Both the position numbers and the translations under genes were made by a program. A stretch of DNA of 64,000 bases from Ectocarpus siliculosus (Eukaryota; Sar; Phaeophyceae; Ectocarpales; Ectocarpaceae). The number at the start of each line of letters is the position of its first letter. Positions within the stretch are counted from its first letter, which is position 1. Shown here piece by piece: positions 18,306 through 62,994 of the stretch. The notes beneath the pieces are model-generated. The model had not been told where the DNA came from, did no database searches, and saw only the letters and a list, made by a program, of their open reading frames with translations. The DNA is taken from the NCBI GenBank assembly GCA_000310025.1, contig FN649740.1:4222514-4286513 (forward strand), in the 5' to 3' direction.

Positions 18306-18339
18306 AACAAGATAGGAATGATTTCAACAAACGAAAGGC

Positions 18340-22298: not shown

Positions 22299-22330
<32 letters not shown>

Positions 22331-23144: not shown

Positions 23145-23149
23145 GGGGT

Positions 23150-27426: not shown

Positions 27427-27510
27427 TCGATGAAAACCCGGCATATGACTCCGTCCCGGCATTACAGGGATGCGAGGTCAATAGCTCGATGACTACAACA
27501 TGCGTGTACA
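27427..27510 (-). repeat. Fragment of the dispersed repeat family
   Basis: The sequence around ACCCGGC...ACTCCGTCCCGGC and GGGATGCGAGGTCAATAG matches copy C with drift. It is about 80 bases long and separated from copy C by roughly 480 bases of other sequence. Confidence 0.6.
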
Positions 27511-39583: not shown

Positions 39584-41302
39584 ATGGGCGTGGTCATGAG
39601 TCGCCACGCTGTTGATGCTGGTGTCGCGGAAGAAATGGCGGCACCAGCCTCTCTCCCGCGCGAAGACTTCACCAATCTCGCACCCGTGCCTCAAGCTCCC
39701 TCTTCGTCACGATCTCCCTTCAGCCAGCCGCCCGAATTTCGCTCTGCTCACCATGTCGCCGCCGCAGCGGATGCCGAGAGCATCCCGAAGAAACGCCAAG
39801 GTCACCGCCTGGAGCCTGCGCGCGGAGTGGAGACCCGCAGTGCTGCCGGTACTGGTAAGCGAGAGGCCGGGACTTCAGCCTACAGCAGTAGTGGGACCGC
39901 AGGGCAAGTAGGCAAGCTGCAGTCCTGCCGTGACAGTCAAGCCAATCCCACGGGAATGATCCAGATGAAAATAACGTTGATGTTGTTCAGACCAATCTTG
40001 CCTGTGAAACGACACCCACACATGCATCTTGTATACTGCTGTGAATGTTGAAATTGTGAATTTGGCTGCTCACCAGGTCAGTATCTAGAAACTGTACAGC
40101 TCTTGTATCGCAGCACGCTACGTAGCAACACACAGACAGCATTTCATAGGAGTTAAGGGTACTGACCATTCATCTGGTCGTTCCTTCCATATCCAGATAT
40201 CCGCGGGTTGCCACAAAAGTGAAGCGTTGTCGAGAACTCGGCGAGGTCCTTTATCGCAAAAGCGTCTCTGTGTAGTCACATCACATCCAATTTCTCCGAA
40301 ATCGTCTCATCAGGTGGACGAGGACGAAAGAGCGCACGAGCACGACGCAGCAACTCTTCGAAGACAAGTAGAACTGCAACGGACCCTCGCCTGTCCGACG
40401 CGTTGAAGATTGTTATGCTCTCCAAGTGGGCTACCCTCAAGTCCGTGAAGCAACTGCAGCTCGCGTCACTCTCCATCTGCAGTGAAAGCCGAGCTTGTAC
40501 CGCGTTTCACTTGAGAGTGGTGAGGCGAACCCCTAAGCGCCTCTGGACCACCACGAGCTCTACAGGGAAGAGGGTCGGAACTGACGGCGTGCCACCCATG
40601 CGCGTTGACTGGCTGACATTCAGGGAGTATTTCGAGCCCGCTGTGAGGAACGTGGTGTGGCGGGCAGGCCTCAGGAAGATCTCGTTTGGGAAGCATTTCA
40701 ACCACCCTCTGACTGGGGTTACCTGGCCTGCGGGCTTGCGGGCAATCGTGTTCGGCTTCCACTTCGATCAGCCCATCGAGTCGGTGGTGTTTCCGCCTGG
40801 CCTCGAAGAATTGGAGTTTGGCCCGATGTTCGACCAGGATGTCAACAGGGTGAAGTGGTCAATCAATCTGAAGAAACTCGTGTTCGGCTGCCGGTTCAGT
40901 CAAGCATTGGAGCTTGCATCGCTTCCCAGAGGACTACAGAGGTTGCAGCTGGGCTGCAGCTGGAATCACCCTCTTGCGCCGGTTGCCCTTCCGGAGTCTC
41001 TGACCTATCTTCGTTTTGGTTATGACTTCGACCACCCACTGGATGAAGTGGCGTGGCCACCAGGGTTGACGCACCTCTTCCTGGACCACTCCTTCAACCA
41101 GCCGATCGACGGGATCGCGTGGCCGGCCCCCCTGCAGCAGATTTCATTCGGCGACGCTTTCGATCAACCAATCGCCGGAGTTGAATGGCCGGCCTCCCTG
41201 GAACAGCTATCCTTCGGCTCCAGCTTCAGTCAATCTCTTGCCCGAGTCGCGTGGCCAAGGTCGCTACGACGTGTGACGCGTTGCGGAGAAAGCCTGATGT
41301 GA
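39584..41302 (+). CDS. FNIP-type repeat protein, short paralog (two exons, about 419 residues)
   Basis: Exons 39584-39854 (ATG; donor ACTG^GTAAGC) and 40314-41302 (acceptor TCATCAG) join in phase 1 to give 419 residues. The N-terminal 100 residues are disordered (QPPEFRSAHHVAAAADAESI...). Then comes a conserved block (DALKIVMLSKWATLKSVKQL QLASLSIC split here for length) and ten 22-residue repeats of the form F(N/D)xP(L/I)xxVxWPxxLxxLxFGxx, e.g. FNHPLTGVTWPAGLRAIVFG. This matches the FNIP/LRR-like repeat known from Dictyostelium and some protists and large viruses, with WP replacing LP. Such solenoids are generally taken as protein-binding; no enzyme domain is visible. Starts at 39596 or 39635 are alternatives. 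Its paralog is 60462-62994, which confirms the exon 1 model through the shared stretch PP(E/D)F..(A/S)HxVxxAAxxExIP. Confidence 0.86.
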
Positions 41303-43372
41303 AAGCTGAGGTCTGCCGTGCTTGCTTCCGTGGTTCCGTTCTCCATCTTTAAAGACGTTCAACCGCAGGAAAGAGAGAAATGTGCGGTTGCCCTTTACGC
41401 GGGCACTGGCGTGAAGGTGAACCCATCACGTCTGCGGCCTGCATCCTGGCCAGCCATCTAGGCGGGTGTCAAAACTCGGCATCAGCGGCCATTCCACTCC
41501 ACCTGAGAAGCCCTGCATCCACCGGCTGGTCGCCGCAAGGGCAGTCCATTCTTAGCGGATATCCAGAGCTAGCTAGACTGCAAAGAGGCTGGCACGATCT
41601 CTGCAGTGAAAAATGGGTCTACTTGATTAGTCTCCATGTCGTGGGGTTGGTTGTCGATGATGAACCCACCCAAGCTGCTCCGTTGAAGACAAATGAGGAA
41701 GGTATTGGCCTGTTTGAGTTTCGTTCAGGGCCCATATGCATATTGATGGTTCATCGCCAATAGGTGGGCCATTATCTCGATCTCTCTTTTCTGCGGAGAT
41801 TATCAGCCGATGCTCAAAGCGGGCGCATGGAGAGATACAAATTGTGCCGGGAATCGACAACCTCATGATGCCACACCCCAACACGTCCTACTGTTCAAGG
41901 TACAATGTGAACGTATTAAACTTCACATTCAACGTTCACGACGCCACCAATGAACGCAGAGGACCCCAATTTGCGGGTGTCACCAGCTGTGATCATCGAA
42001 AGTGAGAAGGCGGAAGGCCACAACGCACCTATGTTGTTCCTCTCCTTGCTTTGAATTTCTTGGGGAGAAGGATTCAGCTCCCCCTACCTCTAGACTTCGA
42101 AGTAGCTCTACTTCCACACACATACTCGCGTCAAGTCAGCCGGACAAGCGTCCTGTACTTGAAGCCATAGTCGACCTTGACAAACGCTGAGAACGCAACA
42201 GGCCCGGAGCGAAAATCCAACACTGTATGCTCGAGTTAACCCTCACGCTAGAGGATTGTCACAGATGCTCACCAATATATGCTTTTGCCATATTGATAGT
42301 GAAGAAAAAAAAGCCCAATCTTTGCACAAAAACGGCCACGTGCACATATCTTGCGGCGAGCAGATATTGCCGCATCCCACGCAACAGGTGTAATGCTTAA
42401 TCTTCGTTACATTGTGCAAAATCTGTCGAGCGTCACGTCGCCTCCAACAAGTGAAATGATTGAAAGCAATCATCCCCTCTAAGACATCAAGGCGTGCCAC
42501 GGGTAAAAGCCATCCCCGGCCTTCGAAAACAAACAGCGCTTGAGCTTCAGACTCGTCTAAGTCTATCGCCGGACCCTCCTACCACATCCACCTCCGCATT
42601 GCGCTACAACAAGTGTTGCCAACATCAAAACAAGCTACGACCATTTTACCCTCAGGACATCGCAAGAACACAAGGTTCGACCCATGCCCGAAAACAAAAC
42701 AAGAGAACTCTAACATCACCATATAGGAGGGCGGCTGATGCTTGTTCCCTGCACAAAATACCCAATTGTGTCGTCGTATCTGAGGAAACCCCCGAGTACG
42801 CGAAAACCATAGACTCGCGAGAAAAACACTCTCGAGTATCAGGATACAATCTACGCTTCCCCCCCCCACCCCGCACAATTGAAAAAAAAGAAAACGCTGT
42901 CCACTCATTTTATGCCAAGGCACAACCGCCTTGCCCCCCACCTTCGCTTCTCTCGTTGAGGAGCTCTGTGCGGCTAACAGCGTCCAAACTAACCACTTAT
43001 GTACAAGAGTCATCTGCATGGTGAGGGTATACAACGAGGCCTACCCTCTCCCAACTCAAACCCAATCCAAACACGGTGCGCCGGAGTTTCGGCCAGTTCA
43101 TGTCTACATCAAACGTACAAGAACTTGTAAGAAAACATGGATTGTCCAGCGCTTGTCTTCAACTGTCCCGAACCATGATCAACCAGCCACCCTGAACAAC
43201 CTCAACGACACAAGCTTTTCCTGGAAACTGTGGCTCAGCAGAGCCGCCGTCCTCGCTCAACAGCCCGAACCCGCCACGCCAACCCCCGCCCGGAAATCCC
43301 ATGTATTTAGCCTACGAGAGTCCACATATCCCGGCAAGTTTTCTCACTGGGAATTTCTTTTTCGAATTTGTT
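41303..43372. other. Intergenic between convergent genes
   Basis: 3' flanks of the FNIP-repeat gene and the serine incorporator gene, which converge here. No supported exon, and short frames are Pro/Thr-biased by chance. Confidence 0.5.
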
Positions 43373-46300
43373 TTACGAGAAGTCCCGGTCGGGGAACACG
43401 AGAGGTGCGACCAGAGTCCACGCGTAGATGATGTAGCAGACCCATTGGCCCGTGGTGGTGAGCCACATCGCCGTCCATCCGTTTTTGGGGTCGCTCGACT
43501 CGCCGTCCTCGTTGATGTCCCCCCAGTTCGTCAGCATCATTCCGAAGAACATGGAGATCAGCACCATCACAACGTTGAACCTCCAGCCCTGGTTGCGAGG
43601 GGAGAAATTCACAGGGACAAATGCAAGATCACCACAAGGGATACAGCGGGGCTGACTCTACCGGCTCTACAACAAAAACGTGGGAAAATGTCTAGTGTGA
43701 TCATAAACCCACAAGGTCGGAGGTATGGGTTGCCCTACCGGTCCTGGACACGCTAGAAGCTCGTGGCGAGCAAAGCTTCCCAACCAGGGTCGCGAAAAAA
43801 GGAACGACGAGTGAAACAAGAAAAAATGCGCCGCCCCTGGCGCTTGAATCCCACCAGATAGCCAGGGTCAGCGAGAGCAAATATAATAGGGAGGCGGAAG
43901 GCCAAGGAAGACGCGAGGGGTGATAAAAACAATAGGCCATACGCAACGCTGGTGGGCGCATGGATTGGGATACGGAGATCGAGCACCCGAGAATGAGTAA
44001 ATCGAGTTACGGAGAAATCCGAACCATTCAGAACCATTCAGAAGTACGCCAGGAAGGATTTATTTGACCCAACAACAAACACGTGTAGTGGGATTTGACC
44101 CCTACCTTCAGAATCAATCACGTTGGCGCTGTGTAGAGCTCTCATGTCCGACTACAGGTGCAGGTTGTTGCTTTCCGTTGTTCGCTTTCTCTTGATTAAC
44201 GCTTTCCCAAGCCAACTCACACGGATCCCAAGCACACCCGATCACTATGTCGTAAGCATACTCAACAGAAGGGCACAATCCTCCGCAAAAAGTCCAAATC
44301 TTGCATGACGCCACGTCATCGCATCTGACGACGCGAGGCAACCATGGTCAAGCACGCTCACATGTCTACGTCCAAATACCTTGACAAATACGTTACCTGA
44401 GAAACAGACGATTTGGTCATCGACAGGAATTTGAGTGTTCGTACCTGGCATGGCCCCTAGTCTACCTTGCCGAGCGCAGCCGGCGGAGTTTCAACCGAGA
44501 AACACAGCACACCACCATGATAGAGCATAAGTCTGAAACCAAGATTGAAAGTATGAAGACTAGAACGACAATATACACAACATACCTCCGGAAGTAGCAT
44601 GCTAGACGATAGCTCTTGCCAAGACCGAAAAATAACAAGATCGGAACGATTCATCTCACCAATCCACCGTCGCTCTGGGCGGCGGAAGGAGTTCCGGCAG
44701 ACGCCGGGGTGGCAGGTCTCGGCGAAGCCCCAGCGCCCACGTCCTGGTCTTGGGCGGTAACGGCTCCTTGCACGAACGGCCTGGTCTTGTCACCGCCGCC
44801 AGACTCGAGCGGCCCACCTCCGTCTCCGCCTGGCGCTTGAACCGGGCCCGGGGCCTCTTCGACCTTGAATGCCGAGTTCATCGGTTGCGTTTGGAAAGGC
44901 ATCCGACCCCCCGTTTGGGGATGAACGAGAACAAGGGTCAGTCATGAAGCGCACAAAAAGACACGGCAAGCATGATGGGAAAAAGAAGACGCCACGCTTG
45001 TGGAACAAGTATCCGCGATTCTATACAACCAGAAGGACGCTCGCATGACAGGGGCATCATGCAAACGATACGTGCAAGTATGCACCCACATCAAAAGCGA
45101 GAGCGCACGAACAAAACGTTAACGAAAACCGTGAAGTAGTCACCTCGTTTGCCTGGCCACCTAGCAAGGCGGTCACGGTTCTGGCAGCATTCAGCGTTAC
45201 CCTGTAGTGCCACGGAGGAAAGAGAGCAGGACCAAACAAGGACGAGAAACATTAGGGACCCTAAGCGGGAAATTACGGCTTACAACGATATGCGTCAAAC
45301 ACAAACATGGTGCGGGGGGCGGGGGCGGCAGGCGTTGCGGGATATATCACATAACTCTCACAGTGCTCCCACACGGCGAAGACCCGGGTAGAAGCCGACG
45401 ATACGCTATGGGATGGGACTTTGGCCCTTACTGCTCATGATTTCCCTAACCCACCGCTGCTATTGGGGGGGGTTGCCTCTGAAGCACAGTGGCATCGCCT
45501 ACAAAGCGGAAACGGGTGTTCTGGGGACTATGCCCTACCTTGCTAGTTTCGGAGACATCTGGGAAGGTAACACGACTTCATGCTGCGCGGTCGCTACGAG
45601 GGCAAGAGTCACGGGAAGGAGGGAGCTCGATAAAGACCAAAACGGACACAAGAGCGCAAACAGGTCAACACAGCTTTGACCCTGCTGCCCTAAAAAACGC
45701 CAGAGAAAAGGCCAGCAAAAAAAAAAAACAGTGACGCACCAGAAGAGCGACAGCACAGTGAGCGCGATGCCGATGAGCACGACCGTGGTGTTGCTCTCCC
45801 CGACGAAGGGGTTGCAGGAAGAGGTTGGCGTTTTCGAAACGGCCGAGAAGCAGAGGAACGTGGCGTAAGAGGTCACCACCGCCGAGGCGAGCAGGTTTCC
45901 CTCGCCCCCCAGCAGCTGGAGAGCGGTAATCGCCTGTTGCGATCGAAGGCGGAAATTCCGGACAAAAAAAAGCGTAATGGGGCGCGAGCAAAGAAGAGGG
46001 GGCGACGCGAGCCGGGCAAAGAGGTTGACAGGCGAGGGTAGGCAATCACAACCAGTGTTATCGACCCAACCCAAATCCGGAAATAAATCCGGGCGTGACC
46101 CAAAAATGACAGCGGTTCAGCCGCGAACATGCAAGAGCTTCACCTTCCACCCAACCAAACTAACGCAACCTTTGGCAAATATATAGCATGCACCTACACG
46201 TACACGTCCCTTCGTCGTAGCAGCTGCAGCAACGGCGGCACCGCCACCACCACCACGCCCCAACACACATAAACAACTCACAGAGGCGCTACAGCAACAG

Positions 46301-49300
46301 GCCAGCTTCGCTTGGAAGACTCACCACCGCGAGAATCAGGGTCAGCGACATCACGAGCTCGTTCTCGGCGCACCCCTGGAAGTAGTGGAACATGGCGCCG
46401 ATGGCACAGAGCGAGCCGGTGTAGAGCACCCCGCTGGCCGTCAGCAGGGCGCAAAGGTATGGCTTGGCCTCCTCGCTGTCGTCGCCGTGCTCGCTCGCCT
46501 TCTCCACCAGACCATCGTTGATCCTGGGTGGGGGGGGGGGGGGGGTTGATGGTGGTTTCGGCGAATGCGGTGTTTGCTGCTGGTGCGGGATGTTCGAAAA
46601 ATGACGTCCGTGATCGACAGATATCTCGTGCATAGCACACCAGTGACGGAGGCGAGACTGCGAGGCATGTCGTTCACCTCCCGACAACGTATGCATTAGA
46701 CGTGGATACCTTCGAAGACAATTTAAATAGCAATCCGCGCCTACTGCATGATGGGTCAAAGACAAGGTACCGATACCATGCTTCTCTCTGACACATGCCC
46801 AGCCACCAAACAGACAGACGAGTCCAAAAAGCGTTTTACCACCATCCCCACGGCACGGACAAACGATGCCGAATGAGTACGATCAAGAGCAAAAAAATGA
46901 ACTAACAAAGGCTGGCAATAGCAATGCATGCGACCGTCTAGCTGGCCGCAAACCCGAACAAATATATTCACACGCACCGGCCATGACCATCCGCTGTTTC
47001 CGACGCCGCCTCTTTAGGCCTATCATTTTCAGGTGCGGGGTAGCCGGAAGAACGCGCGAAGATATACAAACACCCTCGACAAAACACACCTACCCAATTT
47101 TCAGCAAGCACGGACGGACGGACGGACGTACCTGTAGGCCAGGTCGATGAGGACAATCTGCTGCATTATCGTGAAGATGAAGGCGCCTATCCTCGCCACC
47201 CACACGTAACCGCTCGTGTCGAAAACGTCGTTCGTGATGAACAGCGTCGCGATCATCAGCACCGCCCACAGCATGAACTTGAAACCCCAGAAGCCGTGGT
47301 TGAACACCGGAGAGCAGCACGCGCACAGGGCCATCAACGCGAAGAACACCTGCGAATGTTCCACCGGCCAACACACGCACCGCGATCGATGGGAGGCGGT
47401 ACGTGAAACGTCTGTGCCTTTGAGCGCACAATGTTTGATGCAGAGCTCACAGCAGTCCCGCCAAATGGCACAGGTCGATCGTCGGCAGCGATATGAAATT
47501 TTTCGCAGGCTAGTTACGAGCCCACGCACAGACCCAGAGCGACCAACCATCCTACGCTAATATGGCCAATATTTGTCTGAAAACGACACTAGAATCCATC
47601 GCGAAAACAAGTTCAGAACACCGACTCCCTACCAGAGAGCCTGATTGGGGCCTCATGGTATTGGAGCAACAAGGGGACTGATTCAAATATCGATTTCTCA
47701 CGGAAAACAGCTCTCAGCCCCGTCGGATCCTCGGTCCTTTCAACGCATACATGGCTGGGGCACACGCCCTGATACTGAAGCTGATGCATTGGCGCTTCGA
47801 CTTCGCTGGCCGAATCCATTTGCCTACGGAAGCCAAATTTGAGAGGTCGGCATTGGTACATGAATTCGTCCGTCACGCCGCCTCAAGAAATTCCGAGCAA
47901 AAACAAGATGGACTGATCCTTTCGTCAACACGTGCTGCTACTTGACTTGTTCAGCCCTCGGTGGAAATAATAAACTCCAGAGGTGGATGTGAGAAGAAAT
48001 ATCGAACCGCAGTGTGACGACTATTCCTCCCTCCGCAGCCTCTTTAGGGCATCCGCGGACAGCAATCTATCTCACCGCATCCACGAAGCTGACCCGGTAG
48101 ACGGCGGTGTTTCCGATGCACACGTCCGTGAACTCTTCCGAGTAGGCCTCGTCGTCACAACTGCAGGCAGAACGAGACATTTTAGGTGTGACGAGTTCAT
48201 ATTTCGAAGAGGAAAATACATGGTATGGGAGGAAGAAAAAGAAACGGAATGGTATCTACACAGCTTCTTGTGGGAGCACGCGAACTTGAACCAATCACAC
48301 TCGGGTATTGTCGGGTCAGCAACTTCGTTTTTTCCCAACGCGCACGATAACCCCACGGTACCAAACCTTGGGCACGGGGTGGAGCAGAAAACTACCTCCC
48401 GCCCGCATTGCTATCGCTGTTGCTTCCTCCTGCAAAAAGTTATCGATGGAACATCACACCCGTGGCGGTCGAAAACACCGAACTTGCACTAGCCGCTCAT
48501 GGCCGTTGACATTCGTGCGTCAACACAAAATGTTTTTCCCGGGGCCTTCGGCAACTCACGGAGGCAGACTTGGGCATTGCCCAACAGCCCATGGCATCGC
48601 CTCCTTCCGGATGCCATGCATGAGGCAACTCGTCTAGTTTCGTCGAGATACCGATGAACACGGTGCCTTCCAATCGAAGCTGGAGAGGGGGTCTACGCGT
48701 GTCGTAGGGGTAGGCGTTTGACGCGGATTGGCGGCGGCGCGAAACTATTGTTCGACTTGTTGCGAGAAAGGTTCGTAAACGTTTGGTCCAGATCGCACGA
48801 TTTTTGTCAAAAGCAAGAGTATCCAAACTTTTTGCGCAACTTTTTCCTCTCAGAAGGAGCGTACACGAGAAAAGTTGCGATAAAAAATTGCAAACTTTTA
48901 ACTTTTCTCGTAACTCTATGCTCCCAAAAATGCGGTGTTAGGACACACACATGGCGTGCCAGCAAACTGATACCCATGCCCCCGGATAGTGCTGAGAAAG
49001 TCAGAGGTTGTGCGAGGCAAGGGGGTTTACTCGAAGTTCCAAGTATCGATAACCACCACGTACGCCCTAGGCATTAGAGTACTCTGGGACGCGTTGGTCC
49101 AACGCTGGCTCAGAGCCGAGGTGAAATAGCGGCACGCCGCCACCTTCACCATGGCCGCCGTCGACACTGCTTTCACTCTGTTGATCTTGTTCCAACCGCT
49201 TTGTCGCGGAAATTGCAGCCTTCATCGCTGTGGCTATGGTCTCTTGGTGTCCTAAAAAACACATCCCACCACGGGTCCCAACGACAAAAAAAAAAAAAAC

Positions 49301-49562
49301 ACGGAATCGGAGTCGAACGCCGCGCTAGAGGCAACGTCGTAGCCAGTGCTGGCGGCTGCAGAGTCAGAAAAAAAAAATCTCACCCGTCGTTCCACCAGTC
49401 GAAGCCGTCGAATAACTGGTACCACCAGTATTGCCCCGCCACCGCAAGAACCACGGAGATGAGCATGATGGTGAGCGCCCTCACGCGGCCCACCAGAGGA
49501 GCGTTGGCGCCATCGCCGCCCCCGCTGTTCGTGCAGCTGCCGCACGAGAACGCAACGTACAT
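43373..49562 (-). CDS. Serine incorporator / TDE1 family multi-pass membrane protein
   Basis: Exons (minus): 49562-49384, 48160-48076, 47349-47132, 46523-46325, 45933-45740, 44863-44660, 43588-43373. Phases agree at the first four and at the last junction; the join between 45740 and 44863 is unresolved (a small exon or other donor may be missing). Family features: N-terminal Cys cluster (SCGSC) and first helix (ALTIMLISVVLAVAGQYWW), CxGNTAVYRVSF, HNGFWFFK-type segment here NHGFWGFKFMLWAVL, hydrophobic FIFTIMQQIVLIDLAY, CALLTASGVLYTGSLC, SSCNP after a helix, MMLTNWGD, and the hallmark end YAWTLVAPLVFPDRDF then Ser and stop. Length about 430, near the usual 400-470. The poorly conserved loop exon 44863-44660 is Pro/Gly/Ala-rich. 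SERINCs are multi-pass proteins of the secretory and plasma membranes linked to serine-containing lipid synthesis or lipid scrambling. The ATG at 49562 gives a short N-terminus, so an upstream first exon is possible. Confidence 0.93.
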
Positions 49563-49709
49563 ACGTTGATTAAAAAGTCAAACTGGCACCACAAGGGGAA
49601 ACACCGCCAGATGAACATATAACACAGAATATGGAACAAGTTGTGTATTCTCGAAATGGGATGCAATGATTCCATTGACAAAGACCTGGAGAGAAGATCC
49701 AACAAGGAA

Positions 49710-50245
49710 ATCGACCCTCGCCACCGATTCGGCGCCGGACAGCATGGACGCAATCTACAGCGTGGCCACCGTGGTCAACGATCAGGGTGTCCGCAAGCGG
49801 TTTCGGCGCCGGACAGCATGGACGCAATCTACAGCGTGGCCACCGTGGTCAACGATCAGGGTGTCCGCAAGCGACTTCCCGGCAAGATTGCCGCAGCCGC
49901 TGGGCCGCGCGGGGCGGACACCCTGGCTCTCGATGACTGCCTCCGTGTGTCGTACATGCTAACGAACCTGTCGGACCCGGTCGCCCTCGTCAACCGCCGG
50001 CACCGGCGGTTGCCGGCGGTTGACGAGCGACCGGGCCCGACAAGTTCATCGCCTCGGGGCGGTCCGTTAGCATGTGCCAGATACGGAGGCAGCCATCGAA
50101 AAGCCAGGGTGTCGGCCCCACGCGGCCCGGCGGCTGCGGCAATCTTGCCGGGAAGCCGCTTGCGGACACCCTGATCGTTGACCACGGTGGCCACGCTGTA
50201 AATTGCGTCCATTCTGTCCGGCGCCGAAGCGGTGGCGAGGTCGAT
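49710..50245. repeat. Near-perfect inverted repeat (arms about 230-290 bp) with 74-bp tandem duplication in left arm
   Basis: The left arm 49710-50000 and right arm 50013-50245 are reverse complements with scattered changes; the centre is the short palindrome CAACCGCCGG/CCGGCGGTTG around 50006. Within the left arm the segment starting TTCGGCGCCGGACAGCATGG occurs twice, at 49728 and 49802 (period 74). Both arms carry the same coding-like sequence in opposite directions. The block lies just upstream of the serine incorporator gene. Confidence 0.9.
49740..50000 (+). pseudogene. Left-arm copy of a duplicated exon (MDAIYSVATVVNDQGVRKR...)
   Basis: The plus frame reads APDSMDAIYSVATVVNDQGV then RKRLPGKIAAAAGPRGADTL, ALDDCLRVSYMLTNLSDPVA and LVNR, which is well composed. 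The 74-bp upstream duplicate is out of frame with it, and no start or stop context is clear, so I treat it as a broken copy. The family is not recognised. The matching sequence on the other arm reads on the minus strand. Confidence 0.45.
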
Positions 50246-50266
50246 GTCGAGGAGGGCGCTACTCAT
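50050..50266 (-). CDS. Right-arm copy of the duplicated exon, with ATG (unknown protein)
   Basis: ATG at 50266 opens MSSALLDIDLATASAPDRMD then AIYSVATVVNDQGVRKRLPG and KIAAAAGPRGADTLA. Beyond that it departs from the left arm through a one-base insertion, so the part ALDDCLRVSYMLTNL is lost here. It points toward the serine incorporator gene and could be an alternative first exon of it, but no donor was found. More likely it is a separate gene start caught up in the inverted duplication. Confidence 0.4.
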
Positions 50267-53200
50267 GATGCCGAAGAGGGAAGAGCGGAGGAGCGGAGGA
50301 GCGGAGAGAAGAAATAGAAGCAGAGAAACCGGGAAAACACGCTGCTGCTGAACAGAACACGTAGGGAGAAAGGGATACCCACACGAGAGGCGACGTGCGC
50401 ACCGCCCTGCATGTGCGCTGCGACTGAACGGCCTCAACCGGTGCTCCCTGTTATCTTTCTGTTTTCCTGTCTTCCTGTCGAAGCAGGGTGCCACAGTGAA
50501 AAGTGAGAGCGGACCTCGTCCTCTAATAATGTTGGCTCTTTGTTGCGCGACATATCTGGAAAGATTGCATCTCTTTCCACCTTGGTTCTTGATAATACAG
50601 GTAGGATCGAGGCTCTGAACTTTGTCGATAGCGCAGGCTCACGACAGCTCTATGCATGCACAAACTGAATCCTCAAAAGTTATTAGTGCTTAGGGCTTGG
50701 AATGAAAATGGATACACCAACACAATATGGTGGTTCCGATAGTTGATGGTGACCCATGTACTGTAGTTACCATGGTCTTCTAGATGTGGAGTGGTGGAAC
50801 TTGGCCGAAATATTCAGAAAGAATCGCTGCGAGAATCTCGGGATGATTCCGCCTCACGACCGCAATTTTACGAAAGTCGCCCGGAGGCTCAAGCCAAGAC
50901 ACATGTGATACATGGCGTTTCCGCACAATACAACATCGGATCTGGGTACCTGTTGTCATCTTATGTTCTTGAGTTTGCGTATGTAGACTTCTCGGAGGCT
51001 CAATGTCTTACCTGTACAGCAGTATTCTCAAGTCCGTACGTTGAGCGCCTTCTGTACTCACAGGAAAACAAGTACCATCCCATATGCATACACACGCGGT
51101 GCAGATGTTTGGTCTAATTGCGTGAGGTGATGCAAATGTGCATAGAATCATCCTTGGGAGAGGACAAAAGCGAGCAGGCATCTGTAGAAAAATACTTCTT
51201 AAAAATAAAAAAATACAAAAATACAGCTCTCTAAATGATATGTAGACTAGAATTGCTGCCGACTGCTGTAGAATTTCATAATATCTGCCGCACTTTCCTG
51301 AGAAGTGTAAACATAGCACGTGCTCATTCGTCTTTGCGGTAGAGTGTGTACGTTCGAAATTGGGATGCGCTAGCTCCTTGTTCGTGCCCGTCCAACTCCC
51401 TCTGGTCGGTGTGGCGCACAGACCTACAGGAGGAGAGGGTGGTGCGAGAATACAATTAGTTCCCGATACACCAAAATGTCTGCACACGCTGAAAGAAGCA
51501 TTTCTCCTCGGTCCCGTGCGTTAAACCACGTTATTGTGAAAGCTAGAGATCAAATTCCTGGCCCTATTGAGAGCTGCTGTGCGAGTCGTTGGACATGCAT
51601 TCCGCAGTCTGCTGGTGCCTTCGCTATACATTCAACGCTGCGGACCGTCCTTGCGATGTGCGCATCTGACATCGGCCCGGTAAACAACCCGGCGGTCTAC
51701 ATCATCATTGTCCGAACCTCAGCAGAGGAAACTCACCATCCCAAGCAACTGCAGCAGATGCTGGCGACACTGACGCATGTCTGGCACGCCGCACAGGCGA
51801 GACAGGCACCCATGTTTGCCTCCTGTTTCCGGTTCTCTCTCGCTCTCCCTCCTCTCTGAGCTTAGCTCGCTCTTGTCTGGGTTTTAGAGCAAGTCCCCGG
51901 CCGCTGCTGTCACCGCACCGTCCCTTCCCCCTTGCAAACCCAGTAGACGGCACCCTTCCGAACCTTTTGGCAGGAACTACACCAGTCAGCAGGTACCAAG
52001 ATCAGCCAGTCGAGCAGAGTCAACAGCACAGCACGCAGCAGCGTAGAAAGAGAGGCAGCGGCTTCAGGAGTACGCCCCAAGGCCCTCAACAACTTGTAAA
52101 CCGTTTCTCAAAATTTTGGAGAACCGTCTGCAGATCGATCCGCGTTCGAAATTATTGGTGGGTACCTTGATTATGCGGAACCCCCGCGGCGGCGATGCGC
52201 CGAGCGGGTCAGGGGTGGTGCATCAGGTTCTTGTGCTGCATCAGGTTCTTGATGCAACTCGTCCTTCTTGTGGTGCCTGGCCAGGTAGCAAACCAGGAAC
52301 GCCATTTTTTCATAAGGTAAGTCGGCGAATAAGTCGAGGGGGCAGTGCTTGCGGCAGTCCAGCTAGCTGGACGGAAACTACGTTGTAGTCGGGTCAATTT
52401 TGCGGAACGTGGACCTTCCTTCGTCTCTGTCTCTCTTGGCACATGCATGGACTTCATGATATTGTAGCGCACAACAGGGGTTGACACTGATAGATTCGGT
52501 AAAGTGTTCTAGCACACCATGAAATGAACCAGTGGTGCGTCTCCACGGTATCCCTCAAAATCTATGCCCTCTCCCCATTTGTTGTGTTACCGGCGGTTGG
52601 GCATCTAGGACGTAGTGCAATGAATAGTTCCACCGCCTGTCAGAAATCTGCACAAATGTGAAGTTCATTTCCTGTCACACCTGTGAATCTCTTCTGACAG
52701 ATGTTGTTGTCGCCCTCACACTCCTTCATTCCTTCACTACAACTGTTCGACCGTCGAGAGGACTTATTTTATCCCCCGTGTGGGTGTTATCCTCGCCGGC
52801 GAATCACAGGAAAATATCAATGATCGTGTATGCCTCCAAGCATGAGCAATTAAGTTATTTTCTTGTACGCTATCAACGGCGTGTACACGCTCTCTGTGTG
52901 ACAACTCGAGCGATGGCGCACGGGCGTGGCATCATTCGAATTTGCCCCCAGTCACTAGGATACGATAGCACTCCGTAGGGGTGGAACTGTATTTTGATTC
53001 ATGCGAAGTCCATTACACCCCGTATTGTGCGATAGACCCTCGTATCCTCGTATACCATCACGTGCCTGATGGGTGCAGGCACAATCAGGGCCGCAGCTTA
53101 TGCAGAACCTATATTGTAGTACCGCCGTTCTCGCCTCTCGAACTGACTCACTTTATTTCCGTTGGGTTCCCCCAATATCCAGAACGTGTGCCCTTGTTTT

Positions 53201-54080
53201 GAATGTCCCCCGCGAAAATGCGAGAAGGCCAGGACGTTCACGTCACATGGCTGATATTTGAATGCCATCTCCGACGCTTTGTCGGCAGCATGCCTCTTGA
53301 CCCGTGACGGCGATGCCCTCAAGTTTGGAACGCGCATATCGCTTGTCTTCTTTTTGGGATGAAAGTTACACCTTTCGCTCGACCTTGCTGCCGACAGCAG
53401 TAGTGGCTTCGTCTGTTGCGGACGGCGAGGGATGACACCCACCGCCGCCCATCCGTACGGAGTTTTGCCCTCTCTCCGTTTGATCCGGGTATCATTCGAT
53501 TCGCAAATTTTTTTCGATGGTGGCATGCACAAGCACAGCAGGGGACAGGCGAAGCTGGGGGTGCGTTTTGTCCACGGCGGTACTGTGGCTGCGTTTGTGG
53601 CAGTGCTTGCACAAGCAGCCACCACGGCTGAACGTGGAAATGATTTGACTGGTTGTCACTTGATGGACTGCCCCCTTCGTCATGCCTTTCTCCCGCGTTC
53701 CACCCCAAATCGACTCTCTCTTGCAAATATGATTCGTAGAACACAACCCTAACCAACCAAAGTACAAATAGGGACCCGCCATCTTCACATAATGGCCCTA
53801 GCAGGCCACCGATGTGTTGGCAACCACAATACGAGTTGACTGTGCCGCACGAATGGGTTTACCTGGCGCAAGCAGATGCAGGCATGCGTCAAGCTCGGGT
53901 CGCGCAACGAGATCCTCCGCGACCTACCTACGTGGCGATATCTTGCCTGTTTCCCAAAGAGTCTCACCTCCAGCAATTTGCCCATTCCGCCACCGCTTTT
54001 TGCCCTCCCAAACATGTAGCACAAACGCCAGGGCAGGAGGAAGAAGTGCGGGCTAAGAATAAGAGGACGTTGTTAACGCC
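50267..54080. other. No supported gene
   Basis: Long frames at 51476-51859 and 53098-53756 overlap opposite-strand frames and lack splice or motif support. Frames near 52981-53202 (plus) and 53098-53280 (minus) are each somewhat protein-like but cannot both be real. The promoter of the plus-strand C2 gene should lie at the right end. Confidence 0.4.
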
Positions 54081-57000
54081 ATGCCGGACCTGAGCGATTT
54101 CGGCGGGCTGGGCGGCATTAGCGGGGCCGCCGGGGGCCTTGGCGCACTCGCGTCTCTCGCGGGGAGCGGCGGTCGTTCGCACGGTGGAGGCGGAGGGCTC
54201 GGAAACCTGGGCGGGCTGGGCGCGATGGGACTGCTCGCAGGTATGGCGGGCGGCGCTGCGGCCGGCGGAGGGCGCCGCAACAACCACCACCACCGGAACA
54301 ACCACTGCGGCGGTGGGGGATACCACCACGGCCACGGCGAGTGTTTTACAGTATTCTCTTTTTGTTTGTGTGGTCTCTCCGCTTGCTACGCCGCTCTGCT
54401 CTTGTTCCGCTGTTCGAGTCGGATTCTGACCACCGTGTCTGCGCTCCTGGTGTTCTTGTTCTGGTTGGTATTGTCTCTATGTTTCAATCCGGGTCCCGTC
54501 TCTGCTGGGTATCTTCAAACGTCTGTGCCGGTCAAACGGACACAGACGCCTTCCACGAGCACAGGGAACATACTCGGAATAGTCAGTCAACTTCATGATG
54601 TTCAAAGCAAGAATAAGGTGGGGGCCATGCCTAACGTAGTGTGTGCTTGCAAATACGGGTTTCGTGGAGGCCTCCTCGATACGGCAAGCACAGGGCACTA
54701 AAAGCACGTGCTCAAGCCGTGGAAGCACGCTGCAATGCTGACGATTGGTCACGAATATTATGCCCGTGGATAAAGATGGAACTGCGAAGCTCGCCGGCTT
54801 CATCGTGGTTAGTTTTCCAAGGTCTCAAACTTCTTGAATCCAAATGGCTCATGCAAGTCCGGCAGCAACGTCTCGGTATCAGAACTTGTGGTTCTAAGCA
54901 TCGACGCAAGCAGCGAATTTGTCCAGGCAACACGGGTAGCCTTGGCTTCGGCCATAGCGGGGGCCAGCACCAGCGGATCGGCGTGCGCGCCGGGGGGTGG
55001 GGAGAAACAAAGTAACTCCAGCCAAGAGTTGGCAAAACACCTCGACCACGAAATCCACACAGCACCAAGGAGTCCGCCTGCAATGCTGGAACAATTCATT
55101 GAGATCACGCACGCGCGTCGGGAGAATCGTCCCAAAACGTTTTAGTAAGACCTCTACCCGTGACTTGCATTCGGGGGACAGGGTGACGACCTGCATGAGT
55201 GCGCCGGGGATGTACCACTCCATACAATGTATGGCAACAACATAAGGTGGTAGATGCTGTGCTAGTTGGATACTGCAAGAATGATGCTGGGCTTTGTTGT
55301 CTATCTTTATGGCCTGTGAGTACTGCAGCATATCAGCACGTTCAAAAACAGCTTCACCGTGTAGGCAAATGCCACCAGGCGCACCCACCTAGACGGAGCC
55401 ACGACTATTAGCAGCACATGTGCATGTATGCATGTATGCATGAATGAGGAATACCAGAATACATATGCTGGCCCCCCCAGTCCCTACAATCCTCAAAGCT
55501 CACCTGCAGACCAGCTCTGTGTACTTGTTTGCGCATCGAACGCCACCGCGGTGTGTATGCGGGTGCGGGTTCGCGCGCGCTAATATCATACGCAATCTCT
55601 AAACACGACAGGCGGGCACGGGGGTTTCGGTGGCGGCGGAGGCTTCGGCCACCACGGCGTCGGGGGCGGCTACCACTACGGCCCGGGAGGGTTCGGGGTA
55701 GGCCTCGGCGGCATGGGGATGGGAATGGGCGGCGGTTACGGTATGGGGGGGATGGGCGGGTACCGCGGCTACGGCGGCGGCCACCACGGCTACCGCGGCT
55801 CGGCCATGAGGCTGCCTTGGATGGGGGTGCTGGCGGCGACGGCGGTGGCCGGCGGCGCGGCGGCGGCGTACCCCAGGGGCGCCAGGAGCCAGGTCACGTG
55901 GAAGGAGGGGAGCAAGCAGGTGTCCGCGCAGGTGTGTGGGTGACCTGCCGACGAAATTGACGGGACATTTGTTTTTCGGGGACGGGGGTGTACTGAAGGC
56001 TAACGCATGCCGCAGTCGTTAGACCATGGCGAGGGGTGTGTGTGTTTTTTTTTGTCAATGGGGTTGTCTCTGCTAACTTCAGGACTGGACCGCGGCACAG
56101 GGCTTGCGCTCTTTTTGGGTGTCTCTGGAGGTTGTTGTTTCTCGCCGACACGGAACAACGCCACGCAACACGGGCAGCTCCCGCCAGACCACCACTGGTT
56201 CTGTCGCAAGCATGTGTAGCTCGCGCGCCCTGGTCTACTTGCCACCCTTTTGTCCAATGTCTTCGCTATTCCCTCGCACGCGTGTCTGCGCGCGCGCTTA
56301 GGTCGGAGGCTTGACGGTCAACGTGGCCTGTGCTCAAAACCTGAAGAGCGTGTCGACCATGAGCACCCAAGACCCGTACGTCAAGGCCAAGCTTCTCGTC
56401 GACGGATACCAGGTTGGTGACATTTTTGCCGAGTCGCGGCTGTTCAGGCAACGGAGTGGTTCATTCAAGGTTCATTCAAGGCAATGAATCTGGACACTGT
56501 GCTTATATTTTTTGGCTGCAAAGGCGAAGCAAGGGCTAGTCGAACTGCGACATCTGTGCCGGCAAACTCTATTGTAGAGGCGCATATGACAAGAACTTAA
56601 CCCCGAGCGGTCGCTCGCACGTTGGAAGTGGCTCCAAATCGAGACGACGGGGCGGGGTCTCCCCATTCTACCACACGGCAAAAGGTGTCAAGGCAGAGTG
56701 TCCGGACTTGTCATATGAACTTGTCCATGTTTTGCGGACACCCCCCGGCGCGCCTCCTTGTCATCTTATGCCCACCTTTCGCAAAAGATCTCCGAGGTGA
56801 AGAGCGGGACGCACAACAACGGCGGCCGGAACCCCAGCTGGGCGAGGAGGAACAACTTCTTCACCTTCTACGTGCCTTCGAACGTTCCGCTGCGGAAGCT
56901 GGCGGTCGTGCTGGAGATATACGACTACAACACCATGTCCGCCGACAAGATGATCGGCACGTGCGGGAAGATTCCTCTCCAGGGGGTGAGTCATCCGTAA

Positions 57001-58043
57001 GAGAGAAGGGAGATGCGCTATTTGTCTGAGTTGCGATCCCTTCGGACCGCTCGGATGCACGTTGTTTTTTGGGTGTTGTTTTGTGTTTCGATTTTTTTTC
57101 GGCATTCACTCTGAACGCGCGCGTGCGGGTTCGATTGTGTTGTACATGTGAGGCACGTTTGCGTGTACCGTTGTTCGTTTTGCTGGAATCTTTCGTTCAT
57201 TTTGCCAAAACGCCGCCCCTCGACCGCCTGCGTCTTGCTTTTTTCGTTTCCCAAAGAAAGCGCTTGGCAGCTTCCCGGTCAGGCCACCGCTTCCGCGCCG
57301 TCCAATATTTGACAGCTTTATTCTCCCTTCACAGGCTAATGTGGCTGTGCCAGTGGAATCGGCCAATGTCCTCCTTGCTTCCCCATCGTGGGCACAGCGC
57401 TTGAATGTTTGGTTTTGGTGGAGATATTGGGTGGGATGATGCGGTAATGTACACAGGGACGAGCATGTCTCGTTCGGCACACGCAAATCAGCTCTGCCCA
57501 TCTCGACCTTCTTCGGAAACCATCTTCGGGTTTGACATGTTCTCCCCTCCCCCCCCCCGGGCGTCCATGTTTGTTGCTTTTTCTGGCAGATCGCAGACGG
57601 GAAGATGCGGTGGTGGACCGTCACGAGCGGGGGGCAGCTGCAGGCCTCTGTCTTCTCCGACGTGAAGTTTAACAGCACCAAGGCATCCAAGTCCGGTGGT
57701 CAGAAGCAGCACCAGAAGAAGAGCAAGCCCAAGAAAAAGAAAAAGAGCAAGACCAAGTACCACTACGGCGGCGGCGGCGGCGGAAGCCGGAACGAGTACA
57801 ACAACTACGTGAGTAGATTTGCTCGCACTGAGTGTAGCGTTGGTCCTAGCATGCGGCATGGAAGGTCATTCGTGTCGGCTGCGGTTTGTTCCGAAGACGT
57901 GTGTACGCGGTACAACGTACGCCGTTTCTTCGCCTGATTTGCGTCCGAACAGGTAAACGGCATGAACAACGCCGGCCGGAACCACGAGGTGCTGCCGTAC
58001 GAGGCCTGGGCCAACGGCCGATACAGGGACAACCGCAGGAGGG

Positions 58044-58077
<34 letters not shown>

Positions 58078-59052
58078 CAGCAGCAGCGACAGCGACTACG
58101 GCTACGGCTACGGCTACGGCCGCAAGCACCAATACGGCGGCGGAGGGCGCCAGCATGGCTACGGTGACAACCGCGGGCACACCAATTACGCCGCCCCTGC
58201 TGGCAGTAACGCCGGCTACGCACCGCCCACAGCCCCTCCCCCTTATACCTATGGCGCTGGCGGAACCCCCGCAAACTTTCAGGTCAGCAAACGCTACTGG
58301 ATGTTGAGGGCCCCAGTTCCTCCGGCTTTGGGCAAAGTGCAATTCTGTGCGCCTTTTAGATACCCTCCGTTCAAAGCTGATCGCTGCGGCTTATTTATTC
58401 CATCGTGGTAGCTTGCCGTAGCCGCAGCTATTTAGCAAGTTGTCTTTTAGGGAGCGAAGATTCCGCTCTTTCGCTTTGGCCGTGTTGCCTTGTGCCCTAT
58501 TAGATATCATGCTGACTGCAGGGAGCTTGTTTTCGGTCTTTGTCGCGGGTATCAAACGGGCCTTGAACGAGTACCCGCGGGCATGCATAACATACGCGGA
58601 TGACAGCTACATTATGGGCGTTAACCCTGATCGCTTGAAGCAGAAGTTGGAGGAACACCTCCCAACGTCTGGGTAGTTCACTCCCATCCAGGTTTGTATT
58701 CACCACCTTGGGAAACCTATGGACAAAATTTTGGCGGGATCCTCGATAGTATGTAGCTCCGTGTCAGAGAGGGTTGCATGGTCAATGTGTTGATTTCACT
58801 CCCACAATGAAAGAAACCCTCCCGTCCTCCATGCTTGAACCGTTCCTGCGTTGCGCCACCCTTGCGGCCTTGCAGTCGCCGGACTACCGCCCCCCCGCAA
58901 CTGCACCTTCCGCGCCTCCGGTGTACCCGGCGACGGCTTACCCGCCGGCTGCGAGTGCACCGGGACAACCGCAGGCTCCGCCACCGTACCCTGGCGCCAC
59001 CGCGCCGCAACAGGGCGGGGTGTACTACAATCAGCACGCCAACAAGAGGTAG
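54081..59052 (+). CDS. Glycine-rich C2-domain protein with poly-Ser, Gly-Tyr and Pro-rich tail (seven exons, 536 residues)
   Basis: Exons: 54081-54336, 55612-55931, 56302-56412, 56788-56985, 57590-57808, 57953-58282, 58876-59052; all junctions agree in phase and the total is 536 codons plus stop. Exons 1-2 are Gly/His/Met-rich (HHHRNNHCGGGG, MGMGMGGGYGMGGMGGYRGY) and end in a hydrophobic stretch, MGVLAATAVAGGAAAAY, possibly membrane-associated. Exons 3-5 form a C2 domain: GGLTVNVACAQNLKSVSTMS, TQDPYVKAKL, NPSWARRNNFFTFYV, LAVVLEIYDYNTMSADKMIG, then KMRWWTV. The Ca2+ loops keep only some Asp (TQDPYVK, YDYN..SADK), so calcium binding is doubtful. Exon 5 ends Lys-rich (KKSKPKKKKKSK). Exon 6 has a Ser run (AGC microsatellite near 58048-58090) and (GY)n. 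Exon 7 is Pro/Tyr/Ala-rich. Intron 1 appears to start with GC rather than GT. A role in membrane binding is inferred from C2; the low-complexity ends suggest a condensate- or wall-associated protein (speculative). Confidence 0.87.
54337..55611. other. Intron 1 of the C2 gene, with ambiguous open frames inside
   Basis: Around 54830-55145 the plus strand is open (SIDASSEFVQATRVALASAI ... EFIEITHARRENRPKTF-like end) and the minus strand is open in two frames (LPDLHEPFGFKKFETLEN end; VLLKRFGTILPTRVRDLNEL). Only one can be real, and it may be a relic of a mobile element. No splice evidence decides. Confidence 0.35.
58510..58676 (+). mobile_element. Reverse-transcriptase relic (YADD motif) in intron 6 of the C2 gene
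   Basis: The frame reads AGSLFSVFVAGIKRALNEYP then RACITYADDSYIMGVNPDRL and KQKLEEHLPTSG. ITYADDSYIMG is the RT catalytic C motif with its two Asp, and the preceding LFSVFVAGI fits the segment after the QG(S/D)PLSP motif in non-LTR elements. The fragment is only about 55 codons, with no endonuclease or other RT blocks in frame nearby, so it is dead. Confidence 0.6.
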
Positions 59053-60461
59053 CCCGGCAGAGTGTCTTGGAGCAAATCCCTTGGCGAAGCGATGGCAAGC
59101 GACGAAAGCGATCAACGGGAGTGTAGATGTATATATCTTGAGGCGGGACGTGGGACGGGGCCTCGTGTTGCGGTAGGGGGTCTCTCTTTGTGATATTTTA
59201 CGGCAGATGTTCTTGAGGAGCTTCAGCTTCTATGCTGCCTGAATGGGCGGTCTCGTTGTCACCATTATTGGGTGACCAAGTCAGACCGTTGTTGAGGGCG
59301 TCCCCCACATCACCCGCGATAATCCGGTGTTGAGACCAAGATCGAACCCGTCCGTGGCCCACCCCAGGCCGATACCAGCCTTTTGGAGATGGGTTTTGGT
59401 GTTGTTCGTGCCATGTGGGTTGCAGAAGGACAGCGTAGTCTCTGGTTTTCCATGTATTCTCAAGTTTGTCGACAGGGAAGTTATTGTCTGACCGAATCCC
59501 TGCGTGCACCCTTGTGACGTGAAGTACGTTTTGTTTCGATTGGGGAGTTGTAGCTTTCGGAGAGTAAATAAAACGGTACATGGGCAGATCGGAGGTTGGG
59601 GATTTTTAGGAGATAGAAAGGTTACGCTACAAAGCTGTATTATGTATGGGACAAGCAGAGTGCACGGAAGGCAGGTGGGCATAACACGTTGTAACTACCC
59701 CCAGAGCGGCGGGGTTTGCGGCGCAGCCTCGTCACATTTTTGCCCTTTTATCTGAAATGACGGTGGCCGTGAGGAGAGCATTGGCATTAAGGATTGCCTC
59801 CGAGGATTTCTGGTATTCTGTGTGTGCGGTAGGTTACGTTGTTTGGGGCGGGGTGTGGATTTCGCGACGCTTTTTGTAATGGGCGTATTTACGTTTGCGA
59901 CCTCTTCCTTTGCGAAAGATGAATATTACAACACCCATATTGCAAATGCTTCAAGTGGTGCTACAGGAGTTGTGTGGGAGACTCTTGGTTGCGTCTCCGG
60001 GGCTAATCGTTTCTCCTCATTCTGCGAAACGTATTCCTCGCCAACATTGCATCAACCAGGCAAGATTCCATGCCTTCCAATTCCGGGTCTATGTAGGCGA
60101 CGCCTTGGCGTGCGCTATGGCAACCGCCATGGGGAGGGCCTGAACGGTTCTTTGCAACTGCGTCGACCGTCCAGTAGCTTGGGACGAATGCCTCTACGCG
60201 TGTGTGAATTCTCGTCGACAACATAAAGTTGTGAGATCGCCTCATTTGGTTTGGAGTCTTCCATGTGTAGAGCGTGTCATGTCTAGCTATTCTTACCAGG
60301 CGACGTATCTATTGGGGGGGTGAGTCCCTGACCTTCTTTCTCAACGGATGACCACCTGTGTCATGAAAGTTCCACGCATCCATGCACACAGCACCGATCG
60401 CTGCATCCGATGCTCTGTACAAATGTATACAAATCTCCCCGACGTAACCCCCTAGAACTGC
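59053..60461. other. Intergenic between convergent genes
   Basis: 3' flanks of the C2 gene (plus) and the long FNIP-repeat gene (minus). No supported exon. Confidence 0.5.
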
Positions 60462-62994
60462 TCAAAAAGGCCATTCGACGGCCTCCGATTCTTCGGACGA
60501 GCCGCCCACAACGTGGATAGTCAAGCTCGCCGGCACATCGATGGAGTCTAGGTCCTCGGAGAAGCTCTGCCCCAAGAAGAGGGATTCCAGCGGCTCCGGC
60601 CACTCGTTGATATCAAGCGGGTAATCGAACGAATCTCCCAAGTACAGCGCCTTCAGGTTGGCCGGCCATTTCACTTCGTGCAGCGGCTGGTCGAAGCTGT
60701 CGCCAAGGTAAACATAGGCGAGGCTAGGAGGAAAGCGAACCTCGTCTAGCGGCTGATCGAATCCATCACCCAGGCCCAGGAGTTGCAAAGACTCGGGCAA
60801 GTCTACCCGTGCAAGAGAGTGGTCCCACAGGCAGCAGAACTTCAAGACAGCTAGTCCTCGGGGAAGCCGTGTGTGCTCCAAGGTCTTGTTGAACCTGCAG
60901 CCGAACTTGAGGTACTCGAGATCTGCGGGCCACTTGACACCACCAACATCCTACACGTAAAGACAACACACAAGAAGAGCCGGATAAGGAGGAGTCGAAC
61001 GAACAATAAGGCGAGAATGACGGCAGGCAAATGAGACGATCACAGCCGTTGTCAGAAGAATAGAAATGTTGGCAAGCTATCACATGGGCAGAGGTACACT
61101 AGAAATCACCGCTGAGGAAAGAATCCATCTATTTACTGTAACACCAAGCACGCCCAACCATTGCTCATCATAGACTACACTACCCTTACCAAGACAAGCT
61201 GTTCATGGTACCATGCTCTTTCGCAACCTGACACTCATTCATAACACGTACCTGGTTGAAATTCGCCCCGAACTCCAACCATTGCACAGAGGACGGGAAC
61301 GCCACCGACTCGATCGGGTGGTCAAACTCTTGGCTGAACGCGATCTGGCGAAGGCCCTGAGGCCACGATACATCACTGATGGGTTGGTTGAACTCTCTGC
61401 CCAACGCCAGTCTCTCGAGACCCACCGGCCACTGCACTCCACACACCGGCTGGTCGAAGACACCACCAAGGGCAAGTGTCTGCAGTCCATCGGGAAACTC
61501 CACCCCGTCCAACGGCTGGTCAAAGGCCTCGCCGAGCCCGAGCGACCGTAGCCCGCGAGGGAGCTTCACTCCAGCCAGGGGCTGGTTGAAGCCGCACCCG
61601 AAGGCCAGGCTCTCTAAGCCGTCGGGAAACTCCACTCTGACTAGCGGCTGGTCGAATGAGCACCCGAAACGGACGTGCACCAGCGTCCGTGGCCACTGAA
61701 CGCCGCTGAGGCTGTTGTCGAATTGCTTGCCGAAGGCAATCTCCCTCAATCGTTCAGGCCAGCGCATGCCGGTCACTGTTGGGTTGAAGCAATCACTCAG
61801 TGTCAGCTGCCTTACGAACACGGGAGGTACCCCGGGGACTCCTGCCGCTTTCCGGCTGCTTCGTTGACCACGTGCGTCTCGGCTGGCCGTCCAAAGGCGC
61901 CGGGGAGTCCGGGAGTTGACGTTGACGTGGAATTCGGTCAACTCGCGACAGTCTCCGCAGATCGATGAAGAGGCCAGCTGTAGCTGCTTGATGATCGTGA
62001 CGGATACCAACTCGGAGAGAAGAACAACCCTCAAGGCGGCCGAGAGGAGAGGCTGCGTTGGTGTTCTGCTGTTGGTGGTGATGTCAGCATTATCGTCTCT
62101 GCCCTCTGAACCGTCTACACCTGGCCCACCTGCATGCGTGTAAAAATGGCACGGATCTGGCTTTCACTTCCGGCTTGGTCAGATTGGGTGGTGTGTGATT
62201 CCGCTGAGCCACCGATGGACACCGGTAACTGCTCACAGAACGTGACCCTTTGACTCTAGATGGAGAATTTGGAATACATACAGTTGCGTGCACACCGCTT
62301 GAAAGCTACAGTGTAGCATGGAAGGGTCGTTGACCCTGGAATTTCGTGAATGCTTGAGGGGGTACTGTATGAAGAGGACATTGCAGTGGAAATTGCGCCG
62401 CATCGGGGAATCACAGCAAAAGACAGATGTTTCGTGTGATGGAGAATGGTGTGTGTCAAGGATGCCTTCAGGAGTCTCGGGGATCAGCATCAATAGTTGT
62501 GTACATTGGGAGCAGCGTATATCCTGGCATGTTCGATGCGCTATGCCAGGGCTCGTTCACTCAGCTGAACTTTCCCCGGCCGAGCCCTCACACCGAAGAG
62601 CTGACATTCCAGGAGAGAAGTGAAAAGTCACATCATCGCGGCTGCCATCCCCTAGACGCAACCGTTAGTAGCAACAGCAGGTTTCAAATGCAGGCAAGGA
62701 GACCAGCACTGCTCCTCTTCGAAGACGGAGCACCCCTTGGCCGGTGGCAAATCACCCGTGCTTTTCCAGCCCACCCTCACCTACACGTGCGCAGGTCTTC
62801 ATCCGGCGGCTGGATAGGCGCTGGCTTCTCCTCCTGTTCTTGAGTGGGATAACCTCCACGCCGGCAGCAGGTGTAACAAGATGGGATGCTGCGAAGTCAG
62901 GTGGCTCACAGGAGGAGAAAGACAAGGTCGATGCAGATGGAAGCGAAGTGGCATCGTGAGGAAGTGATTCCTTGGCCCCTTGAGTGAAGTCCAT
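60462..62994 (-). CDS. FNIP-type repeat protein, long paralog (three exons, about 526 residues)
   Basis: Exons (minus): 62994-62781 (ATG; donor GTAG^GTGAGG), 62129-61252 (acceptor GCATGCAG; donor AACCAG^GTACGT), 60950-60462 (acceptor ACGTGTAG; stop TGA). Phases are 1 and 0, total 526 residues. The disordered N-terminus (CEPPDFAASHLVTPAAGVEV) aligns with the short paralog, as does the block LRVVLLSELVSVTIIKQLQL before the repeats. It has about fifteen 22-residue repeats, e.g. FDQPLVRVEFPDGLESLAFG and FDQPLDGVEFPDGLQTLALG. Intron 2 falls inside a repeat, between FNQ and DVGGVKWP; the matching repeat in the short paralog (FDQDVNRVKW) has no intron. The final units turn acidic (FSEDLDSIDVPASL, GSSEESEAVEWPF). 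A protein-binding solenoid is the likely role; partners unknown. Confidence 0.9.

Follow-up and report, generated by a model that had tools for sequence, protein, structure and literature searches.

The closest described counterparts of the genes analysed here are Crov588 and Crov539 of Cafeteria roenbergensis virus, viral proteins of 25 and 12 units, respectively, the former of which forms a closed circle according to the accessible part of the report (PMC9525666). Brown algae are likewise rich in such proteins: 121 FNIP proteins are counted in Saccharina japonica, and 104 with FGxxFN repeats in a brown alga whose name is printed as 'Endocarpus', in the available passages of two papers (PMC4421812; PMC9525666). 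One of these passages describes a repeat tree in which brown-algal FNIP proteins fall closest to a giant virus (PMC4421812), and an FNIP pseudogene is mentioned, in the accessible text of a third paper, within a virus-like insert of Ectocarpus (PMC2373305). FNIP/FGxxFN repeats may recognise many ligands, and their functions are described as little known in the section available (PMC9525666). Among the titles listed in literature searches, none concerned the exon structure of FNIP genes. Here we describe two FNIP-repeat genes of Ectocarpus siliculosus that differ in the number of their repeat units and in one intron placed inside a unit.

Results

Layout of the gene pair

The window, by which we mean the whole 64,000-nucleotide stretch analysed (from contig FN649740.1), carries two convergent genes: a short one on the + strand (S; 39584-41302) and a long one on the - strand (L; 62994-60462), whose coding ends are separated by 19,159 bp (41303-60461). 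Splice sites of both genes are predictions from in-silico splicing of the sequence, and the frame runs uninterrupted through the joined exons of each. The 419-residue S protein is assembled from exon 1 (39584-39854), bearing the start codon and an N-terminal stretch, and exon 2 (40314-41302), bearing a pre-repeat block, ten FNIP units and the stop codon; the intervening phase 1 intron (39855-40313) measures 459 bp. The 526-residue L protein is assembled from exon 1 (62994-62781, with the start codon at 62994), exon 2 (62129-61252, encoding a pre-repeat block and units 1-8 and ending three codons into unit 9) and exon 3 (60950-60462, encoding the remainder of unit 9, units 10-15 and the stop codon). 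Its two introns are a 651-bp phase 1 intron (62780-62130) and a 301-bp phase 0 intron (61251-60951), and all three predicted introns of the pair begin with GT and end with AG.

The reading frames of the three repeat exons all matched the Pfam family FNIP (PF05725), with E-values of 5.9e-36 for S exon 2 and of 4.4e-29 and 2.6e-22 for L exons 2 and 3; the corresponding scores of 122.8, 100.8 and 79.1 bits, set against a gathering cut-off of 21, place both genes in the family. Apart from FNIP, no Pfam family matched the frames of the three repeat exons at E<=0.1, and none matched the N-terminal parts of the two proteins, conserved block included, at E-values up to 10.

Paralogy and age

Several features argue for common descent of S and L. 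Intron 1 is phase 1 in both genes and splits the first Gly codon of an aligned Gly-Gly. The conserved block ahead of the units (S residues 91-196, L residues 72-185) is identical at 50 of 106 aligned positions, with a z-score of 36.0 and a local score reached in 0 of 2000 shuffles. The two first exons yielded no tblastn pairing at E<=1; shuffling nonetheless gave a z-score of 9.3, and again none of 2000 shuffles attained the local score, which rules out the similarity of exon 1 as an artefact. These results uphold the preliminary description, which had called S and L true paralogs with homologous first exons and the same phase 1 first intron, facing each other across about 19 kb.

Overall, 188 of 396 aligned residues (47%) are identical between the two proteins. 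Synonymous divergence (dS) by NG86 ranged from 1.14 to 1.76 over four stretches, exon 1 yielding no value, and YN00 returned 1.05 and 1.12 for two stretches; 21 of the 48 four-fold sites common to the two repeat arrays are identical. Given this level of protein identity and a dS of about 1.0 to 1.8, the duplication that produced S and L is, judged from their sequences, old. A larger inverted duplication carrying both genes was also considered and was ruled out, as self-comparison of the window (E 1e-4, low-complexity filter on) returned no DNA match between the genes or between their flanks.

Other features of the window

An apparent single Serinc gene of four or more exons lies between S and L on the - strand (43373-47556), four reading frames there matching Pfam PF03348. 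Nearer to L is a C2-domain exon on the + strand (56719-57000; PF00168, E 5.5e-6), flanked by Gly/Tyr- and Ser-rich frames at 55584-55943, 57536-57937 and 57938-58411; the first two of these frames gave no Pfam match at E<=0.01. The region 49707-50248 holds a 74-bp tandem pair matching at 100% (49728-49873) and an inverted copy that is 93.9% identical (50152-50248). Dispersed repeats over 11924-27503 contain three equally scoring tRNA-Thr(CGT) genes on the - strand (12191-12262, 13960-14031 and 19202-19273), a pattern that would fit a tRNA moving together with its repeat, and an assembly gap of 100 N (18835-18934) falls inside this repeat cluster. FNIP relics were sought across the window and none was found beyond S and L, a weak signal on the + strand at 52367-52456 (E 0.8 and 0.21) being judged noise.

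Correspondence of the repeat units

Both arrays consist of tandem, gapless 22-residue units with the F[ND]...P spacing typical of the family, 10 in S (40631-41290, 66 bp each) and 15 in L, a difference of five; the counts given earlier, ten and "about fifteen", were thus accurate. Over the 25 units, F is conserved at position 1 (23/25), P at position 11 (23/25), L at position 14 (24/25) and G at position 20 (21/25), while W occupies position 10 in 14 units.

Dynamic programming on whole units paired S1 with L1 and S2-S10 with L7-L15, leaving L2-L6 (61722-61393) unmatched, under all four gap-cost settings, and with the order of the L units shuffled the best score was reached in 2 of 10,000 trials. 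With the five-unit gap set after unit 0, 1, 2 or 3 of the S array, the scores were 534, 545, 525 and 520, respectively; since these are so similar, the place of the gap within L units 1-8 is known only roughly. Around the intron of L, S3-S6 and L8-L11 are identical at 48 of 88 positions, compared to 36 for the next best placement, and 41 of 20,000 shuffles did equally well. S unit 4 (40829-40894), which is unbroken at the site of L intron 2, has L unit 9 as its best L partner (13/22 identical).

Further downstream the correspondence is looser. S7-S10 match L12-L15 at 39 of 88 positions with a BLOSUM score of 196, and L4-L7 at 38 of 88 with a score of 213. Because the fit to L12-L15 is no better than that to L4-L7, we infer unit turnover, and more than one map is possible downstream of the intron. 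Similarities within each array point the same way: S8 and S9 share 13 of 22 residues (a 66-bp tandem at 70%), L12 and L13 share 14 of 22, and L3 and L5 share 15 of 22. Judged from these comparisons, units have evidently been turned over in both genes.

We built five trees on the 25 units; an alignment of 22 columns is too short to exclude partners of S4 other than L9. S4 and L9 were sisters in four of the five (support 0.90 with FastTree on DNA, 0.80 with FastTree on protein, 88 with LG+G4, and 92/84 in a repeat of the LG+G4 analysis). In the codon tree, S4 instead grouped with L2 (66), with L9 adjoining them (56). The repeat LG+G4 tree, in which 17 of 22 inner branches stayed below 80 and the bootstrap had not settled, also recovered the pairs S1/L1 (96/80), S6/L11 (91/89) and S5/L10 (85/83). 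By the AU test, grouping S4 with L4 was rejected (p 0.03), while grouping it with L13 (p 0.10) or L3 (p 0.20) was not. The preliminary description had aligned S4 with L9 and had proposed that a unit tree setting the flanking units of the two genes apart would count against this. Four of the five trees do not set them apart, albeit with weak power; the alignment is backed by these trees and by the best-partner result, and the codon tree speaks against it. As it stands, the correspondence of S4 and L9 rests mainly on unit order.

A predicted intron inside unit 9 of the long gene

The 301-bp phase 0 intron interrupts L unit 9 after FNQ, whereas S reads straight through unit 4, as previously described. 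Ten bases are identical at the L junction and at the unbroken S site (ACCAG/GATGT), so that the difference is precise whichever its direction. With the sequence CAG|GA, the S site is an ordinary proto-splice context. Once the 301 bp are removed, unit 9 regains its 22 residues exactly and the junction resembles the S sequence, while reading through adds 21 residues before a stop. The length is not divisible by 3, and several stops are spread over the three frames of the gene strand.

We considered several possible sources of this intron. An origin from former repeat units was ruled out, in that an HMM made from the 25 units detected no FNIP signal in its open segments of at least 15 residues. 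Its best match elsewhere in the window was 19 bp (E 0.19, not significant). The 7-mer TACGTGT occurs near both ends, and 5.3% of 20,000 random GT/AG pairs from the window reach a match of 7; with this repeat at chance level and the best window match at 19 bp, a target-site duplication or introner-like origin was likewise rejected. The GC content (0.458) differs slightly from that of the other two introns (0.488 and 0.530).

Predicted structure and putative function

Structure models of S and L, made from a two-row alignment, show a strand about every 22 residues, with a cap strand followed by 10 strands in S and 15 in L. The 10-residue mean pLDDT was mostly 70-96 over the repeats, and roughly the first 175-190 residues were poorly modelled, the conserved N-terminal block appearing there, at low confidence, as helices and one strand. 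No F-box was detected by Pfam up to E 10 in the N-terminal parts, a poorly modelled region in which a very diverged F-box would be possible.

In a PDB search the best three rows for each model were chains of Crov588 and Crov539 (TM-scores 0.28-0.67), with best E-values of 4.7e-13 for S and 1.1e-15 for L; these values concern predicted structures, and Foldseek also uses sequence. A search of the PDB with the S sequence likewise found Crov588 and Crov539 closest. Among the first 34 rows of a BFVD search, run with the L model, 29 were named FNIP proteins, 32 named a giant virus and 2 were nameless. Taken together, the models place S and L in the FNIP/FGxxFN class of LRR solenoids, with a predicted layout of a probably disordered N-terminal stretch, a short conserved block and then a curved solenoid, which in L would be lengthened by five strands through the five extra units. 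From family and fold, the solenoid of both proteins is most likely a protein-binding surface.

Search for further relatives

No third family member was found among viral contigs, bacterial and archaeal contigs or phages, collections that hold few or no eukaryotes and are uninformative on brown algae. In viral contigs, S exon 2 retrieved 5 stretches, 0 of which were confirmed, and two degenerate DNA patterns retrieved 7 and 39 stretches (45 loci), which gave 0 tblastn matches to the S and L proteins at E<=0.05; the rows returned by tblastn against the first 7 stretches alone all had E-values between 0.099 and 0.48. In bacterial and archaeal contigs, query A1 and L exon 2 retrieved 119 and 43 stretches, respectively, with 0 confirmed. 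Phages gave no tblastn match to the S repeats.

Discussion

We consider it reasonably probable that S and L are old FNIP paralogs in which a block of units and an intron changed separately, with a lean toward loss of the intron. After the old duplication, recombination between units would have added a block of five units to L or removed one from S, and a single spliceosomal intron at the CAG|G of L9/S4 would have been lost from S or gained in L. The polarity of either change cannot be told from the sequences of one gene pair. The two genes match in unit number from the intron to the end of the array, and the extra units lie upstream of the intron, in the same exon. As far as can be seen from this arrangement, the unit change and the intron change appear independent, and a dS of about 1.0 to 1.8 leaves ample time for two independent changes. 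The preliminary description had presented the pair as a clean local case of intron change together with unit expansion. Paralogy, the one intron difference and the five extra units stand; that the changes were linked, recent or polarised does not, a joint event being unsupported with the extra units upstream of the intron, and the "expansion" in L could equally be a deletion in S.

Regarding the direction of the intron change, we lean weakly toward a precise loss from S with its 5' intron kept, which could have come about through conversion by a partly reverse-transcribed mRNA. S retains the 5' intron and is without the 3' one. Intron loss by reverse transcription in Dictyostelium is precise and occurs further from the 5' end, according to the accessible part of the study (PMC4683709), and the retained 5' intron together with the precision of the change in S fits that pattern. 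The converse, insertion of the 301 bp at the CAG|G proto-splice site of an unbroken L unit 9 after the duplication, we rate at somewhat less than an even chance. It would agree with the unbroken S array, with the proto-splice context of the site and, slightly, with the lower GC of the intron; yet no source for the intron was found, the terminal 7-mer is not unusual, no target-site duplication is apparent, and gains are rarer than losses in Dictyostelium, as far as the available text reports (PMC4683709). The position of brown-algal FNIP proteins nearest a giant virus in the published repeat tree, as given in the accessible passage (PMC4421812), also bears on this alternative: were the family of giant-virus origin, its ancestor would have had an unbroken array, which would raise the likelihood of gain in L. 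An extended form of this account, in which the family came from giant viruses with an unbroken array, the unit 9 intron was gained after the duplication and the N-terminal block is a joined host module, seems unlikely to us. If it were true, S and L would descend from a captured viral repeat gene, and a large local family would offer a record of when an intron gain took place and where the intron came from.

Loss from S and gain in L both treat the intron change as an event of its own. That intron and units changed in one event, for example by recombination through the intron in the manner of ROCO-LRR exon shuffling, is suggested by the position of both differences within the same array and by brown-algal ROCO LRR repeats, which are shuffled as one-repeat exons in the account available (PMC11378527). 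We nevertheless regard a single event as very improbable: the array of 15 units has a single intron, phase 0 and inside a unit, in contrast to the 72-bp phase 2 exons reported for ROCO genes, the extra units do not touch the intron in the best alignment, and S3-S6 match L8-L11 across it. We give still less credence to the idea that the 301 bp are no intron at all, and that the L model is wrong or L is a broken gene or two genes. Although the splice sites of L are predicted from sequence and read-through gives a short extension ending in a stop, splicing restores an exact 22-residue unit with an S-like junction, the 301 bp shift the frame, contain stops and lack an FNIP signal, and the exons on both sides are open FNIP frames.

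Compared with known systems, the S/L pair belongs to the already known FNIP family, for which brown-algal families of about a hundred members are reported in the accessible literature, and adds one well-described pair to this large repeat family. If the intron were polarised over the roughly hundred family members reported in a kelp and in another brown alga, intron gain and loss could usefully be tested on this family, whose genes are suspected to be of viral origin. A small additional lead is the block conserved in the N-terminal parts, which has no named family. By their published description, the brown-algal FNIP proteins resemble S and L in that the units mostly have WP ends. In contrast to the F-box/FNIP proteins of giant viruses, S and L carry no N-terminal F-box recognisable by Pfam. 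The brown-algal ROCO LRR genes share with S and L arrays of LRR type with variable unit number, but combine a ROC-COR domain with repeats carried singly on 72-bp phase 2 exons, as described in the part of the report available (PMC11378527). S, on the other hand, has its 10 units in one exon and L its whole units divided 8 and 6 between two, with one lone phase 0 intron within the array and no match to ROC or COR in either protein. The closest likeness is to Crov539 and Crov588 (PDB 7zal and 6nyr), which share with S and L 22-residue units of an LxxLxFGxxFNQPIExVxW/LPxx-like consensus; S and L differ from these viral proteins in unit number (10 and 15), in containing introns and in an additional N-terminal stretch.
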